A program made the translations under genes and the position numbers. Below, piece after piece: positions 19,816 to 24,991 of a stretch of DNA of 64,000 nt. Origin of the DNA: Blastococcus aggregatus (GTDB lineage: Bacteria > Actinomycetota > Actinomycetes > Mycobacteriales > Geodermatophilaceae). Each line of letters begins with the position of its first letter. Position 1 is the stretch's first letter. A model generated the notes under the pieces. That model was not told where the DNA came from. It was given only the letters and a program-made list of their open reading frames with translations, and searched no databases. The stretch lies in contig NZ_OBQI01000005.1 of assembly GCF_900221005.1 (NCBI RefSeq), positions 248,001-312,000 on the forward strand, written 5' to 3'.

Positions 19816-21066
19816 TCACCCCTCCGGGTGCCGGACAGCGGGTCGGACGCGGGCTCCGGAGGCCCCTCCGGAGCGCCCCGGCCGCCCGTCGCGGTGCAGC
19901 AGCGTGGCCGGGCGGACCGCGCCCGCACCGAACCGGCGGGCGGCACGGTCGGCGGCCAGCTCGGCGTCGCGCCGGCCGTGCTCGCGGGCGCCGAGCTCCA
20001 GCTGCTGGGGCGCCGACCCGGCCTCCACCAGGCGTTCGGCGCGCACGCCGACCAGCCGGATGCGGGCCCGCTCGAGCCCCAGCGCGTCGAACAGCGACCG
20101 GGCGGTGTCGTAGAGCTCCTGCCCGACGTCGGTCGGGACGTCGAGGGTGCGGCTGCGGGTGATCGTGGCGAAGTCGGCGAAGCGCACCTTGATGCTCACC
20201 GTCCGGGCCAGCCAGCCGCCCGAGCGCAGCCGGCCCGCCGTCCGCTCGGCGAGCAGCAGCAGCTCGCGGTGGATGACCACCGGGTCGTCGACGTCGGTGC
20301 CGAAGGTCTCCTCGTGGCCGGCCGACTTCTCCGGCTCGTTCGGGACCACCCGGCGCGGGTCCCGTCCCCAGGCCAGCTCGTGCAGGTGGCCACCGGCCGC
20401 TGGGCCCAGCGCCCGCTGCAGCGTCCGCGCCGGCACGTGCGCGAGGTCGCCCACGGTGCGCAGCCCCAGCCGCAGCAGCTGCTCCTCGGTCTTGGGGCCC
20501 ACGCCCCACAACGCGCCGACCGGCAGCGGGTGCAGGAAGTCCATCACCTCGGCCGGGCGGACGATCCGCATCCCGTCGGGCTTGGCGGAGGTGGAGGCCA
20601 GCTTGGCGACGAACTTGCTGCTCGCCACGCCGACCGAGCAGGTGATCCCCTGCTCGTCGAACACGCGGGCGCGGAGGTACTCCCCGATCTCGGCGGCGTC
20701 GCCCAGCCGGCGGCCGGCGCCCTGCACGTCGAGGAACGCCTCGTCCAGGCTCAGCGGCTCCACCAGCGGGGTGATCGAGCGGAACAGGGCCATCACCGAG
20801 CGGGAGACCTCGCCGTAGAGCGCCAGGTCGCCGGGGACCACCGTCGCCGTCGGGCACAGCCGCAGGGCGCGCGCGGTGGGCATGGCCGCGTGCACGCCGT
20901 AGCGCCGGGCCTCGTAGGTGGCCGAGGTGACCACGCCGCGGTTGCCCGCCCCGCCCACGATCACCGGCGTGCCGGCCAGCTCCGGCCGCCGCCGCACCTC
21001 GACGCTGGCGAAGAACGCGTCCATGTCGACGTGCAGCACGGTGCACCCCTGCGCGCGACCGACCAC
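19816..21066 (-). CDS. dinB: DNA polymerase IV (Y family)
   Basis: Error-prone translesion polymerase. 416 aa. Seen: HVDMDAFFASVE (first catalytic Asp), SLDEAFLDV (Asp-Glu pair), a palm/fingers region with ARRYGVHAAMPT, the thumb helix-hairpin-helix around LWGVGPKTEEQLLRLGL, and a little-finger domain. A QQLELG segment near residue 350 could be a beta-clamp contact. GTG start at 21066 is supported by a GAGGGGGCGGA run just upstream; in-frame sequence further upstream is antisense to the repeat-peptide gene and has no homology. Preceded by a LexA box, so damage-inducible expression is expected. Confidence 0.95.
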   Translation of the reverse strand: MVGRAQGCTVLHVDMDAFFASVEVRRRPELAGTPVIVGGAGNRGVVTSATYEARRYGVHAAMPTARALRLCPTATVVPGDLALYGEVSRSVMALFRSITPLVEPLSLDEAFLDVQGAGRRLGDAAEIGEYLRARVFDEQGITCSVGVASSKFVAKLASTSAKPDGMRIVRPAEVMDFLHPLPVGALWGVGPKTEEQLLRLGLRTVGDLAHVPARTLQRALGPAAGGHLHELAWGRDPRRVVPNEPEKSAGHEETFGTDVDDPVVIHRELLLLAERTAGRLRSGGWLARTVSIKVRFADFATITRSRTLDVPTDVGQELYDTARSLFDALGLERARIRLVGVRAERLVEAGSAPQQLELGAREHGRRDAELAADRAARRFGAGAVRPATLLHRDGRPGRSGGASGARVRPAVRHPEG

Positions 21067-21081
21067 TCCGCCCCCTCGTGT

Positions 21082-21097
21082 TCGAACACCTGTTCGG
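21082..21097. promoter_or_regulatory. SOS (LexA) box upstream of dinB
   Basis: TCGAACACCTGTTCGG matches the actinobacterial LexA site TCGAAC-N4-GTTCGA at 11 of 12 fixed positions. It lies 16-31 bases upstream of the dinB start codon. Confidence 0.85.
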
Positions 21098-21282
21098 TTC
21101 CGGTGTCGACGGTAACCGCCTCCCGGGCGGGTGGGCGCGGCGACCCCGCGGCCGTGACGCACTCGTGACCGGCGCCGCCGTCCATGGAGGAGAGTGCGCA
21201 TGTGTCGGACCTCGACGGGCGAGGTAGACAGCGACGGAGAGCCGCCGACCGGCGGCCGATCCCTGACGGAGCGGAGGAGCCC

Positions 21283-21537
21283 ATGGCTCTGGACGACGAG
21301 ATGACCAGCGGCGACGGCGGTGCCGACGGCGGCGCGGACAGCGGCGCCCACGGCCCGGCCGACGGCAGCGCGGGCGCGGCCGACCACGGCGCGGCCGGTA
21401 CGCCCGGCGGGCACGACGGCGGTGCCGATGGTGGCGCGGACGGCGGCGCCGATGGCAGTGCCGACGGTGGCGCGGACGGTGGTGCCGATGGTGGTGCCGA
21501 CGGTGGCGCCGACGGTGGCGCGGACGGTTCGGCCTGA
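21283..21537 (+). CDS. Gly-Gly-Ala-Asp repeat peptide (84 aa), possible oxygenase substrate
   Basis: Unrecognised small acidic protein. After a short leader-like stretch (MALDDEMTSGDGG) it is nearly all Gly, Ala, Asp and Ser, with ten GGAD tetrads (two early, eight in the C-terminal half) plus GSAD/GSA variants and three isolated His. It has no Lys, Arg, Cys or aromatic residues, no signal peptide and no membrane helix. The ATG at 21283 has a strong GGAGGAG site 5 bases upstream. Its stop overlaps the first codon of the cupin oxygenase frame (CTGA), and that gene overlaps the next. The simple repeat and this coupling suggest it is a substrate, scaffold or metal-binding partner of the neighbouring enzymes. 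Function unknown. Confidence 0.7.
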   Translation: MALDDEMTSGDGGADGGADSGAHGPADGSAGAADHGAAGTPGGHDGGADGGADGGADGSADGGADGGADGGADGGADGGADGSA

Positions 21538-22817
21538 GCGAGCAGCCCGCCCCGCAGGGCCGGGCGGAGCAGCTGCTCCGCCCGGCCCTGCGGCGGTGCA
21601 CGAACGCCGACCCCGAGGTCTTCGCCCGCGATCACTGGGGGCACACCCCTCTGCTGACCCGCGCCGCGGACACCGGTAACACCTTCACCGACCTGCTCGA
21701 CCTCGCCGCGGTCGACGAGCTGCTCTCCCGCCGCGGGCTGCGCACGCCCTTCCTGCGCATCGCGAAGGACGGCCAGGTCGTCGACCCGAAGCGCTTCACC
21801 GGCCCCGGTGGCGCCGGCGCCGAGATCGCCGACCAGGTCAGCTCGGACGCGGTGCTTCGACTGTTCGCCGACGGCAGCACGGTGGTCCTGCAGGGCCTGC
21901 ACCGGCTGTGGCCGCCGCTGATCGAGTTCGCCGACCAGCTGGCCGCCGACCTCGGCCACCCCACCCAGGTCAACGCGTACGTCACCCCGCCGTCCTCGCG
22001 CGGGTTCGACGCCCACTACGACGTGCACGACGTCTTCGTGCTGCAGGTCGCCGGGCAGAAGCACTGGACCATCCACGAGCCGGTGCTGCGCGACCCGCTG
22101 CGCACCCAGGTCTGGACCGACCGCCGCGAGGACGTCGCCGCCGCGGCCGCCCGCGAGCCGGTGATCGACGCCGTCCTCGAGCCGGGTGACGTCCTCTACC
22201 TGCCCCGCGGCTTCCTGCACTCGGCCACCGCGCTCGGCGAGATCAGCGCCCACCTGACCATCGGCATCCACTCGGTCACCCGCTGGGGCGCGGCCGAGGC
22301 GGCGCTCGAGCTCGTCCGCACCCTGGCCGCCGAGGACCCCGCGCTGCGCGGCTCGCTGCCGCTGGGCGTCGATCTCGCCGACCCCGACAGCCTCCGCGAG
22401 GACATCACCGCCGTCGTCGAGGGCCTGCGCGCGTGGCTGGGCCGGGTGGATCCCGCCGAGGTCGCCGAGCAGCTGCGCGCCCGCACCTGGGCGCAGGTGC
22501 GCCCCGAGCCGGTCGCGCCGCTGGCCTCGTCGGCCGCCGCGGCCGCCCTCACCCCCGACACCGTCGTCCGGCTCCGCCCGCGGCTGCGCTGCGTCCTGCG
22601 CGACGAGGACGACGGCCGCCTGACGCTGCTGGGCGGGCGCCGGACGCACTCCTTCCCGGGCTCGGTCCGCGCGGCGCTGACCGAGCTCCTGGCCGTCGGC
22701 GAGCTGAAGGTGGGCGACCTGCCCGGGCTCGAGCCGGACGAGCGGATCACCCTCGCGCGGCGCCTGGTCACCGAGGCCGTCGTCGTCGTCCCGGACGCCG
22801 CAGTCGCCGGACCGTGA
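21534..22817 (+). CDS. JmjC/cupin-4 type Fe(II)/2-oxoglutarate oxygenase-like protein
   Basis: Resembles the ribosomal-oxygenase (YcfD/ROXA-like) cupin-4 family, which hydroxylates protein side chains. With the CTG start at 21534 it is 427 aa: VFARDHWGHTPLL near residue 30, GFDAHYDVHDVFVLQVAGQK with the HxD iron ligands (about His161, Asp163), YLPRGFLHSATA with the distal His (about 229), then a winged-helix-like C-terminal part. No ATG, GTG or TTG exists in frame between the stop at 21264 and GTG 21852, and starting at 21852 would delete the conserved N-terminal motif. A CTG start coupled to the upstream stop, a frameshift, or a sequencing error are the options. The stop overlaps the next gene (GTGA). 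2OG use is inferred from family. Confidence 0.8.
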   Translation: MSEQPAPQGRAEQLLRPALRRCTNADPEVFARDHWGHTPLLTRAADTGNTFTDLLDLAAVDELLSRRGLRTPFLRIAKDGQVVDPKRFTGPGGAGAEIADQVSSDAVLRLFADGSTVVLQGLHRLWPPLIEFADQLAADLGHPTQVNAYVTPPSSRGFDAHYDVHDVFVLQVAGQKHWTIHEPVLRDPLRTQVWTDRREDVAAAAAREPVIDAVLEPGDVLYLPRGFLHSATALGEISAHLTIGIHSVTRWGAAEAALELVRTLAAEDPALRGSLPLGVDLADPDSLREDITAVVEGLRAWLGRVDPAEVAEQLRARTWAQVRPEPVAPLASSAAAAALTPDTVVRLRPRLRCVLRDEDDGRLTLLGGRRTHSFPGSVRAALTELLAVGELKVGDLPGLEPDERITLARRLVTEAVVVVPDAAVAGP

Positions 22818-23800
22818 CTCCCCCCGCGCCCCTCCCCCCGGACGACCTCTGCCGCGCCGACGTCCCGCCCCGCCCTGCCGGGCGGCTGGACGCCGCGCGC
22901 TGCTCGGTGCAGGCGCTCGCGCGCGGTGACTCGGGCGTCGCCACGGCCTCCCCCGTGCAGCGCTGGCTGCTGGTGGAGCAGCCCGGGCCGTGGGGCCGGG
23001 ACGCCCTGCTGCAGTCCCGGTTCGACGCGCGGGTGGCGCCGCTGCTGGCGGAGCGGGCCCGGCGGGAGGACGTCCGCGTGCTCCTCGTCCGCCGTCCCGG
23101 TGACCGGCTCGCCGACGCCGGGGGCCGGTGGGCGTACGCCGACAGCCGCCCCGGGCGCGAGGGGATGTGGTGGTCGGTGCGGACGTCGGACGCCGACCTG
23201 CTGACCGCGCCCTGGGACGGCTCGGTCGGCGAACCGGCGGCGGGGCCGGCCTACCTGGTCTGCACGCACGGCGGGCACGACGCCTGCTGCGCGCTCCGTG
23301 GCCGGCCGCTGGCGCGCGCCATGCCGGCGCCCGGACCGGCCGACGTGTGGGAGTGCAGCCACCTCGGCGGCGACCGCTTCGCCGCCAACGTCGTCGTCCT
23401 CCCCCACGGCTTCTACTACGGGCAGGTGCCCGGCGACGGCGGCCTGCTGGTGGCCGCCCACCAGCAGGGACAGGTGGCGCTGGCGTGGCTGCGCGGCCGG
23501 GCCGGGCTGCCGGCGCACGTGCAGGCCGCCCAGCACGGCGCCCGCGAGGAGCTCGGACTGCTCGGGGTCGACGACCTGGCTCCCCTGGAGGCCACCCGGC
23601 TGCCCGATCCCGCCCCCGACGTGGAGCGCTGGCAGGTCGCGCTGGCCGGCACCCCGGGACCGGTGACCGTCGTCGTGGAGAGCCGCCCCTCGCCCGAGGC
23701 CGTGCACCTCACCTGCTCGGCAGCCCGGCCGGGCCGGGTGCGCACCTGGCACCGGCTGTCGGTCAGCCGGGACGACGGGCGACCCGGCTCAGGTCAGTGA
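22814..23800 (+). CDS. Sucrase/ferredoxin-like protein (thioredoxin-fold [2Fe-2S] type)
   Basis: Member of the Suc_Fer-like family, which has a thioredoxin-like ferredoxin fold. 328 aa. The segment AYLVCTHGGHDACCALRGRP (Cys150, Cys158, Cys159) and WECSHLGGDRFAANVVVLP are the conserved parts; Cys13 and Cys30 near the N-terminus could be further ligands. GTG start overlaps the cupin gene stop, so the three genes are probably translated as a unit. An electron-transfer role for the oxygenase is conceivable but unproven. The 3' end overlaps the convergent phosphodiesterase gene by 12 bases. Confidence 0.85.
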   Translation: MTPPAPLPPDDLCRADVPPRPAGRLDAARCSVQALARGDSGVATASPVQRWLLVEQPGPWGRDALLQSRFDARVAPLLAERARREDVRVLLVRRPGDRLADAGGRWAYADSRPGREGMWWSVRTSDADLLTAPWDGSVGEPAAGPAYLVCTHGGHDACCALRGRPLARAMPAPGPADVWECSHLGGDRFAANVVVLPHGFYYGQVPGDGGLLVAAHQQGQVALAWLRGRAGLPAHVQAAQHGAREELGLLGVDDLAPLEATRLPDPAPDVERWQVALAGTPGPVTVVVESRPSPEAVHLTCSAARPGRVRTWHRLSVSRDDGRPGSGQ

Positions 23801-24991
23801 CGCGCCGGACGCGACGAGCAGCGGGATGGCCAGCTCGGTCGCGGTGAGCGAGCCGTGGAAGGCGGTCAACCGGCTGGGCCCGGGTTCGCGCTCGGAGGCG
23901 GTGAGCGCCCAGGTGCCCCGGGCGAGCGCGACGACGTCGCCGATGCGGGCGGCCACGCCGGGGTCGACCGGGCCGAAGATGCCGCTGCCGACCGCCTCCT
24001 CGCGGGAGACGACCCAGGCCCGCTCCCCCAGCACCTCCCGCCACCGGTCCAGCACGTCGGCGGCCGCGCCAGGGAGGGCGTGCACGTAGCGCGCCCGCGG
24101 TTCGCCGGCCAGCAGCCGGACGCCGTCGTGCAGCTCCGGGACGACGTCGAGGTCGAGCCGGGTGCCGGCCGGGACGTCGAGCATGCCGTGGTCGGCGGTG
24201 ACCAGGAGGGCGGCGTCGCCGGGGAGCCCGGCCACGATGTGCTCGACCATGCGGTCGACCAGCCGGAGCTGGGCCCGCCAGCTGTCGGAGTCGACGCCGC
24301 GGACGTGCCCGGTGAGGTCGAGGTCGGCGAAGTAGCCGTAGACCAGGGCGCGCGGCGTGGCCCGGAGCGCCCGCAGGACCAGGGCGGCGAGGTCGCCGGC
24401 GCCGACGGTGCCGGTGTAGGCGGCGCCGCGGTAGGCCGCCCGGCTCAGCCCGCTGCCGGTGTAGGCGTACGGGGCGACGACGGTCGCGGGCACGCCGGCC
24501 GCCGCGGCCCGCCCGAAGACGGTCGGCTGCGGCGCCCAGGTGTCGGGGTCGGGGTCGTCGCGCCACTGGGTGTGGTTGAGGGCCCGGTCCTCCCCCGTTG
24601 CGCTGACTTCTCCGGGAACGATGGTGACGAAGCCCAGCACGCCGTGGCTGCCCGGCGGGAGGCCGGTGCCGAGGGTGGTGAGGCTGACCGGGGTGGTGCT
24701 CGGGCACGGTGCGGAGAGGTCGCCGGCCGGGCTGGCCAGGCCGGCGAGGGTCGGTGCGAGGTCGGCGTGCTGCCGCACGAGGTCGGCGCCGAGCCCGTCG
24801 ACGAGCAGCACTGCCACCCGCCGTGCCCCCGCGAGCGCGGTGGCCAGGCCCAGCGGGTCCGCGGGGGCGTCGCCACGGTCCATCGGGACGCCGAGCGCCG
24901 CCGCGGCGCCCGGCAGGACGTCGGCCAGGGTCGCGGTGCCGTAGGCCGGCCGGTGGAGGTCGGCGGGCAGGGGCGTGGAGGCCGGCGGCAT
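23789..24991 (-). CDS. Alkaline phosphatase superfamily protein (type I phosphodiesterase/nucleotide pyrophosphatase)
   Basis: Metal-dependent phosphohydrolase; exact substrate unknown. 400 aa. Seen: VAVLLVDGLGADLVRQHA (metal Asp), PSTTPVSLTTLGTG (catalytic Thr region), GYFADLDLTGHVRGVDS (Asp/His ligands) and LLVTADHGML (Asp-His). No signal peptide is evident, so it is probably cytoplasmic. The ATG shares one base with the methyltransferase stop (TGATG), so it is the second gene of a two-gene unit. Confidence 0.88.
   Translation of the reverse strand: MPPASTPLPADLHRPAYGTATLADVLPGAAAALGVPMDRGDAPADPLGLATALAGARRVAVLLVDGLGADLVRQHADLAPTLAGLASPAGDLSAPCPSTTPVSLTTLGTGLPPGSHGVLGFVTIVPGEVSATGEDRALNHTQWRDDPDPDTWAPQPTVFGRAAAAGVPATVVAPYAYTGSGLSRAAYRGAAYTGTVGAGDLAALVLRALRATPRALVYGYFADLDLTGHVRGVDSDSWRAQLRLVDRMVEHIVAGLPGDAALLVTADHGMLDVPAGTRLDLDVVPELHDGVRLLAGEPRARYVHALPGAAADVLDRWREVLGERAWVVSREEAVGSGIFGPVDPGVAARIGDVVALARGTWALTASEREPGPSRLTAFHGSLTATELAIPLLVASGASLT

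Follow-up and report, generated by a model that had tools for sequence, protein, structure and literature searches.

The analysed window is a stretch of 64,000 nucleotides (nt) of the Blastococcus aggregatus genome (contig NZ_OBQI01000005.1, positions 248,001 to 312,000). On its forward strand, three overlapping genes form an operon that encodes an Asp/Gly/Ala repeat peptide of 84 amino acids (a putative precursor; 21283..21537, with 84 codons at 21283-21534 and the TGA stop at 21535-21537), a 2-oxoglutarate oxygenase of the JmjC_2 family (PF08007; 21534..22817) and a Suc_Fer-like protein (PF06999; 22814..23800). An initial annotation had described an 84-residue Gly/Ala/Asp/Ser-rich peptide with ten GGAD tetrads, a cupin-4/JmjC-like gene with HxD...H ligands whose first codon overlaps the peptide stop, and a Suc_Fer-like gene with a Cys-rich motif that overlaps the oxygenase gene. 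Translation of the open reading frame (ORF), Pfam searches and homologue alignments agree with this description, with the addition that the start codon of the oxygenase is unusual. Repeat peptide and oxygenase are conserved together as a pair, and look like an unrecognised peptide-modification system that would be common in actinobacteria and present in a few distant bacteria.

Conserved pairing of the repeat peptide and the oxygenase

All 23 genomes of the genus carry the oxygenase, and all 23 loci have a peptide with the same end. At the family level, the oxygenase was found in 109 of 112 genomes, two of which (G071, G096) gave short or weak matches only. It was furthermore present in 60 of the 396 genomes sampled from the phylum (single-sequence query). 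In the class, an alignment query retrieved it from 133 of 394 sampled genomes, and 75 of these genomes gave 353 bits or more. A scan of named genomes covered the best 80 loci of at least 573 relatives. These 80 were mostly from Actinomycetota, with many Nocardioides, and included two Chloroflexi bins (L114, L117) and two Myxococcota-type bins (L113, L127), all four being metagenome or draft assemblies.

A strict composition rule, defined after the first peptides had been seen, detected an upstream Asp-rich ORF at 147 of 162 oxygenase loci, versus 2 of 3212 random windows from the same loci. Ten of the 15 misses had at least 330 nt of flanking DNA and all showed Asp-rich repeats by eye, while the other five had less flank. 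By a looser rule, a peptide was located just upstream of the enzyme at 152 of 154 distinct loci (i.e. with enzymes differing by more than 3%); the remaining two (L094, L130) are without upstream DNA. Two of the 152 peptides are atypical, one being non-repetitive (L040) and the other having GGGLLGGGGDASGDT-like units and a short flank (L081), and two (L066, L127) are partly masked. Hence, as in ribosomally synthesized and post-translationally modified peptides (RiPPs), a short encoded putative precursor adjoins a candidate modifying enzyme. The initial annotation had named a repeat ORF that is absent or frameshifted beside most homologues as the result that would speak against it; this comparison was run, and gave no such result.

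In the class sample, all 44 loci examined from the 75 genomes with at least 353 bits had a repeat peptide, recognised by rule in 42 and by eye in L192 and L209. Several of these loci are re-fetches of earlier ones, and genome G250, with the atypical locus L040, is among the 75 but outside the 44. Within one genus of the same order, for which 17 genomes were chosen from the phylum and class searches, the peptide was detected in seven of seven genomes with the enzyme and in none of the ten without it (E <= 0.01). Each of the seven contained exactly one peptide copy, at the oxygenase locus. Moreover, a quick tree of 80 representative enzymes (support by the Shimodaira-Hasegawa-like approximate likelihood ratio test only) required two changes in peptide presence among the 77 rows that could be assessed (66 peptide-bearing, 11 peptide-less), leaving out L081, L094 and L130 with little flank. 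Several of the peptide-less rows are on long branches. The core type changed once on this tree, with a support of 99, between GGAD-like (15) and DGTD-like (43) peptides; two others were unclassed.

Peptide, oxygenase, Suc_Fer protein and RNA hairpin

After a short MALDDEMTS start, the window peptide consists of D, G, A, S, H, P and T only, and ends in GGADGSA before the stop codon. Comparison of adjacent units among the last GGAD units of the 33 nearest loci gave 65, 43 and 475 differences at codon positions 1, 2 and 3, respectively (2970 comparisons). This excess of third-position differences implies selection on the protein in the peptide frame, and is clear for the GGAD set only. Peptide length ranges from 66 to 111 amino acids in the nearest set. 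A regular expression for the leader-like motif D[DE][DE][ILMV]x(x)[TSV] matched 122 of the 152 peptides, with segments such as MALDDDDMTST, LSDDDMTT and LTDEDIRTV; among the other 30, several have a near variant by eye and some have none (e.g. L038, L045, L163). A conserved leader is thus combined with a variable core, as in RiPPs, and the cores vary by clade. They include GGAD, EGPADGG..HDGGADG and DADGTDGDATD types, and Asp is retained.

Core composition was calculated for 61 representatives from the 60 C-terminal residues of the open frame, which in short peptides include the leader or some upstream frame. The cores contained 27.5% D, 22.5% G, 16.1% A, 11.0% T and 7.3% S. Asp and Ala were present in 61 of 61 cores, Lys in 14, Arg in 27 and Cys in none, and aromatic residues were rare (Y in 3, F in 3 and W in 7 cores). 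The core Asp residues are mostly preceded by A, T, G or S and followed by G, A or S, at spacings of 3 (42%), 2 (33%) or 4 (9%). The core sequence drifts while Asp remains. The window peptide had no Pfam or NCBIfam match at E values up to 1, and no PHROGs or PADLOC family match. A known family for ten other peptides was rejected, as these gave weak matches of a low-complexity type only (the best being collagen at E 0.073 in Pfam and FliH-type at E 0.26 in NCBIfam).

Weaker JmjC relatives of family f91 adjoin a short, non-repetitive peptide whose end resembles that of the repeat peptides (D[SNT]DGTD[SG]SSDFI) at 13 of the 16 loci fetched (present at L227 and L230-L241; absent at L223, L242 and L248). 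An example has the leader EVEVEDLAEVTSRDITAG followed by the core GGDSDGTDSSSDFI. Because these relatives carry a leader and a single core, the repeat peptide is best seen as a multi-core leader-plus-core precursor. In both f91 loci inspected (L251, L254), a Peptidase_S9 (prolyl oligopeptidase) gene adjoins the JmjC gene. The single-core Asp peptide, JmjC and prolyl oligopeptidase genes span 4841-8466 in L251, where the S9 gene is apparently split between two frames (by eye), and 5965-9840 in L254. It is possible that these three genes define a separate RiPP family.

Elsewhere among the weaker relatives, Suc_Fer adjoins the JmjC gene on the opposite strand in L252 (from the genome of L244); the frame upstream of the L252/L244 enzyme ends in ADPDGSDG by eye and was unflagged by the single-core rule. 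The upstream peptide of L245 ends in SDSDGSDGLNYPEGQ. At L223, a Cys-containing short ORF (...LICDPDPSDDCWIVCNPNYCY) precedes a divergent JmjC gene and is unlike the other cores. The other weak relatives had no recognisable peptide upstream. We dropped the claim that weaker relatives have no peptide, since single-core-like ORFs occur at several of them. The ad hoc single-core motif, found at 8 of 25 weaker loci versus 85 of 1500 random windows, is weak as a criterion.

The oxygenase matched JmjC_2 at an E value of 1.4e-28. Its Fe ligands H161-x-D163 (22014..22022) and H229 (22218..22220) are invariant in 32 of 32 aligned sequences, and so are N147, Y149 and K176, whose equivalents we take to bind 2-oxoglutarate in NO66 and MINA53. 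A DxHDV signature, also invariant in the 32 oxygenases, stands at the position of DDIEA in NO66. The AlphaFold2 model had a mean predicted local distance difference test score (pLDDT) of 91.8. Profile searches retrieved NO66 (E 6.4e-41), MINA53 (4.3e-34), the cupin-4 protein 4csw (9.1e-18) and ycfD (3e-15). Superposition of the model on NO66 (4y4r_A) gave a Z score of 29.7 and a root mean square deviation of 5.2 over 392 aligned residues, and a Z score of 20.0 was obtained with ycfD. The double-stranded beta-helix fold with HxD...H, characteristic of the NO66/MINA53/RoxA group, is thus present in the model. According to their PDB titles, the fold relatives NO66, MINA53 and ycfD are protein hydroxylases. 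Given the NO66/MINA53-type fold and the intact ligands, the enzyme is most likely an active protein hydroxylase, with a target residue that cannot be read from the fold. The C-terminal region of the model, with strands at 344-374 and helices at 376-388 and 401-413, would be compatible with a PqqD-like domain. The oxygenase also matched phage families of unknown function in PHROGs (phrog_8014, E 4.1e-21), and phage-encoded relatives may exist.

The Suc_Fer protein matched PF06999 at an E value of 4.6e-16, and the same family matched all 20 proteins of an aligned set. A suc_Fer gene was located downstream on the same strand at 143 of 157 loci with enough DNA. Column counts over 45 aligned proteins, compared with the Aim32 motif, indicate a candidate cluster-ligand region at 23261..23374 (forward strand), with the motif C150-x8-C159...H183-x3-D187 (C150 at 23261-23263, C159 at 23288-23290, H183 at 23360-23362 and D187 at 23372-23374). 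The ligand motif of Aim32 is CX8CXnHX3H (PMC8482512, as given in excerpt). The bis-histidinyl set CX8C...HX3H of Apd1/Aim32 is absent from the window protein, which has HX3D, and the fourth ligand position is Asp in 40, His in 4 and Glu in 1 of the 45 proteins. Further invariant cysteines are C30, C158 and C301. The AlphaFold2 model (pLDDT 86.1) had the thioredoxin-like [2Fe-2S] ferredoxin 1f37 as its best fold match, with a probability of 0.98 but an E value of 0.078. Since this E value is high, the fold label relies on the probability, the Pfam match and the similarity of a short stretch of sequence to 1m2d (E 7.5e-4). Residues 255-319 form C-terminal beta strands. The weak fold matches include several cystatin/affimer-like chains, which may belong to this C-terminal part.

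Downstream of the peptide stop, a 42-nt perfect inverted repeat (21552..21593, forward strand) predicts a strong RNA hairpin that begins 14 nt past the stop, within the first oxygenase codons. In each of the 33 nearest loci the stem comprises 14 or more pairs (median 18) and contains no more than one mismatch. Compensatory changes are seen: one stem pair is C-G in 24, G-C in 8 and G-G in 1 of these loci, and single double changes occur at three other stem pairs. LLRPALR, with which the conserved protein block opens, is encoded by the 3' arm, and a linker that is unconserved outside the family by the 5' arm; hence selection for pairing acts on the RNA. Over the 152 loci, 90 have stems of at least 14 pairs and 114 have z <= -3, compared with 8 and 34 of 304 windows inside oxygenase genes. 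Most related loci have a strong hairpin of differing sequence past the peptide stop. In several groups the hairpin is weak, with stems under 11 pairs at 38 of the 152 loci. We infer that the hairpin serves either to yield more peptide than enzyme or to allow re-initiation at the start codon that overlaps the stop. An Rfam match of the hairpin to mir-3155, at 26.4 bits versus a gathering score of 70 and on both strands, was rejected as a chance match, as was a second microRNA model match elsewhere (E 0.1).

The gene boundaries are closely packed. A GGAGGAG at 21273..21279 (forward strand), with GGAGG at 21273-21277, precedes the peptide ATG and is Shine-Dalgarno-like, as judged from sequence only. 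The oxygenase frame (frame 0) is open from 21267 to its TGA at 22815-22817, and its first ATG, GTG or TTG is only at 21852. An earlier start is needed, because the conserved N-terminal block, which begins at about residues 16-21 in the homologue alignment, lies before that codon. The start is likely to be the CTG at 21534-21536, which overlaps the peptide stop in a CTGA junction (21534..21537). A CTG without ATG, GTG or TTG near the junction was found at 28 of the 33 nearest loci and at 58 of the 152 loci overall; one further locus has neither. The apparent CTG-over-TGA start recurs in the bacterium's own family and in Nocardioides-type loci. A possible programmed frameshift, by which peptide and enzyme would be joined at the CTGA, was considered owing to the hairpin; inspection of the CTGA junctions revealed no conserved slippery sequence. 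The GTG start of suc_Fer (22814-22816) overlaps the oxygenase stop in a GTGA, and its frame ends at 23800.

Genes surrounding the operon were surveyed at 80 loci, up to 6 kb on each side, using ORFs of at least 90 amino acids. The recurrent neighbours on one strand were the oxygenase (77 loci) and Suc_Fer (64 loci), whereas the next real-looking cluster occurred in 16 of 80 loci, and large antisense clusters were mirror ORFs. A fixed operon of more than three genes is therefore unsupported. An ABC-type ATPase ORF (named by eye) was near 12 of the 80 loci, on both strands. In L100, a large ATPase-type regulator ORF (by eye) lies upstream of the peptide at relative positions -4277 to -1266; ORFs of this cluster were found in 16 loci, and 14 of the 18 are same-strand. 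A mobile element was also considered and rejected: only 18 plasmid records matched the oxygenase at E 1e-20, with a best identity of 34.3%, and 16 of these were from one Streptomyces species. With so few plasmid matches, the system is not evidently plasmid-borne.

Proposed mechanism and alternative explanations

We consider it probable that the repeat peptide is the substrate of the JmjC enzyme. On balance, we favour a RiPP-like system in which this enzyme modifies the peptide by hydroxylating core Asp repeatedly at the beta carbon. Asp hydroxylation is the best guess because Asp is the sole reactive side chain in every core, although its presence in 61 of 61 cores is only consistent with an aspartyl beta-hydroxylase function. 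The initial annotation had also suggested a substrate role for the peptide, for example in Asp hydroxylation; the conserved pair and the Asp in all cores speak for it, the modification itself remaining a prediction.

The enzyme would recognise the peptide leader, possibly through its C-terminal domain, and would then hydroxylate the core iteratively at the Asp beta carbon. Through the hairpin 3' of its stop, the peptide would be made in larger amounts than the enzyme, as befits a substrate. As a frequent accessory, Suc_Fer would perhaps donate electrons, so that Fe(II) stays reduced, or would act on metal bound by the product. This product, a poly-hydroxyaspartyl peptide, would probably work inside the cell, because no dedicated protease or exporter was found to accompany the system within the 6 kb surveyed.

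Several observations weigh against this interpretation. The looser rule behind the 152 of 154 loci had no null of its own, and the L040 enzyme of G250 is a 436.7-bit match yet adjoins an atypical, non-repetitive ORF. The contrast between seven of seven and none of ten genomes is uncorrected for kinship, and so does not represent many independent events. On the tree, the peptide-less L166 is nested among peptide-bearing rows, and the core-type split is one event and therefore consistent with co-evolution rather than proof of it. Furthermore, 11 of 17 weaker JmjC matches are without a repeat peptide; at two of these 11, single-core-like ORFs were picked up by a looser search. The codon-position bias is mild when pooled over all loci (1795/2100/2692), and at a fixed lag L099, L133 and L137 show no third-position bias (31/58/50 of 387). 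Where the substrates of fold relatives are known, the residues modified are His and Arg of ribosomal proteins rather than Asp, according to PDB titles. No match to PF05402 (PqqD-like) or to a family of RiPP recognition elements (RREs) was found in the 32 oxygenases at E values up to 10, and no conserved protease, exporter or iron gene was found within the 6 kb surveyed. Modification, binding and expression of the peptide are all inferred.

The Suc_Fer distribution also counts against the complete scheme. In total, 14 of the 157 assessable loci have no adjoining Suc_Fer. Loci L035, L123, L136, L140 and L142 keep peptide and oxygenase but have lost the downstream Suc_Fer, a natural deletion. Seven genomes were searched throughout: G315, G389, G250 and G390, whose locus is without Suc_Fer, the relative G665, and G000 and G336, whose locus has it. 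Suc_Fer of this family was nowhere in G315, G665, G389 and G390, all of which keep the oxygenase. In G250 the one Suc_Fer gene is far removed from the oxygenase gene, and the only copy in the window's genome is that of the operon. Because loci and whole genomes without Suc_Fer keep the oxygenase, it is an accessory rather than a universal part. The earlier suggestion of a redox partner may hold in this accessory sense, but an obligate partner is weakened.

As a speculation, the product could plausibly serve as a ligand of Fe, Ca or Mn; beta-hydroxyaspartate is a siderophore ligand according to an excerpt of PMC7100376. Metal binding by the product is nevertheless rather doubtful. Equally tentative is a broader idea, in which a widespread, mostly chromosomal housekeeping system would make an intracellular poly(beta-hydroxyaspartyl) peptide, many of whose Asp residues the JmjC enzyme converts to hydroxyaspartate, an Fe(III) ligand known from siderophores, as a genetically tunable metal buffer, with a synthesis that needs O2, Fe(II) and 2-oxoglutarate and a ferredoxin-like protein that reduces the bound metal.

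Alternatively, the peptide could be a partner and not a substrate, i.e. a disordered acidic scaffold, or a metal (iron) donor or inhibitor, to which the oxygenase binds while acting elsewhere, for example on a ribosomal protein. The nearest solved relatives are indeed ribosomal oxygenases, a partner would also be coupled to the enzyme, and Asp-rich cores could bind metal. However, the core repeats vary in number and sequence while the leader-like segment stays, some relatives have a leader with a single short core, which is the layout of a precursor and not of a scaffold, and the hairpin arrangement fits an excess substrate. We therefore regard a partner role as unlikely.

Other chemistry on the same peptide, acting through Asp-Gly or Asp-x-x-Asp, would include cross-linking, cyclisation, desaturation or backbone oxidation. 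These Asp contexts are offered by the cores, but cross-link partners are few, with Cys in none and Y, F and W in 3, 3 and 7 of the 61 cores, and the fold group consists of hydroxylases by PDB titles, which makes this option quite improbable compared with hydroxylation.

It is highly unlikely that the ORF is a regulatory leader peptide, in which ribosome progress over Asp, Gly and Ala codons controls the hairpin and thereby oxygenase expression (attenuation or coupling). The strong hairpin past the peptide stop in most loci and the overlap of enzyme start and peptide stop in many would suit such a role. Yet the peptides are long (66-111 amino acids in the nearest set) and repetitive over most of their length, their N-terminal motif is kept while the rest varies widely apart from Asp, no U-tract terminator-like site as expected of an attenuator was found in 21000-24000, and 38 of the 152 loci have no stem of 11 pairs or more. 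Finally, an ordinary hydrophilic stress protein (like hydrophilins or late embryogenesis abundant proteins) sharing an operon with a housekeeping oxygenase would explain the Gly-rich hydrophilic composition and the near-universal presence in one family, but is hardly credible in view of the linkage across phyla with unrelated repeat sequences, the joint absence in one genus and the peptide type that tracks the enzyme clade.

Comparison with known systems and implications

Multi-core RiPP precursors have a conserved leader, tandem cores and an adjoining modifying enzyme. The favoured RiPP-like system resembles them in its leader-like segment, tandem cores and adjoining enzyme, but differs in its acidic repeat cores, in which no cleavage motifs were recognised; no conserved protease or exporter was found within the 6 kb surveyed. 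The oxygenase is like NO66, MINA53 and RoxA (ycfD) of PF08007 in its near full-length fold, HxD...H ligands and C-terminal domain, as seen in the predicted model. In contrast to NO66, to which it has about 24% identity, it carries DxHDV instead of DDIEA. Moreover, unlike in NO66, MINA53 and RoxA, its gene adjoins that of a small Asp-rich peptide, and a ribosomal substrate is not indicated. The Suc_Fer protein shares the CX8C...H motif and the thioredoxin-like ferredoxin as best fold match with Apd1/Aim32 (Suc_Fer, PF06999), as far as excerpts on these proteins describe them, but mostly has HX3D where Aim32 has HX3H, and has an extra C-terminal domain.

Excerpts of two papers describe BipG and PbsQ of biphenomycin as JmjC ornithine hydroxylases in RiPP clusters (PMC12257519, PMC12707348). 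There, a JmjC/cupin enzyme hydroxylates a ribosomal precursor peptide, as predicted for the peptide studied here. According to the same excerpts, BipG and PbsQ are one tailoring enzyme among multinuclear non-heme iron-dependent oxidative enzymes, radical S-adenosylmethionine enzymes and arginase, and act on ornithine. Unlike those clusters, the JmjC enzyme is the sole evident modifier here, and the core needs no Arg or ornithine. Bregman et al. (2025; PMC12710340) report PF08007 JmjC proteins that are RRE-like, with their nearest homologues from bacteria located in 'RiPP-like genomic contexts'. The Pfam domain of these fusions and the RiPP-like setting of their bacterial homologues match the present locus; the relevant excerpt deals with these homologues in one sentence, and mentions neither a peptide nor a repeat nor Suc_Fer. 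A search of open-licence literature on JmjC/cupin enzymes with RiPPs, hydroxyaspartate, Asp-rich repeats, sucrase ferredoxin and Apd1/Aim32 found no description of the system. The initial statement that no system of this make-up has been described was thus nearly right, except that the excerpt of PMC12710340 mentions RiPP-like contexts of PF08007 homologues.

If the proposed interpretation is true, these loci would represent a peptide-modification system that is common but unannotated, in which a single JmjC oxygenase is the sole evident modifier, and would provide natural substrates for many orphan PF08007 enzymes. It would also link the ribosomal-oxygenase fold of NO66 and MINA53 to RiPP-like biosynthesis, and the repeat cores would be simple templates for multiply oxidised Asp polymers.

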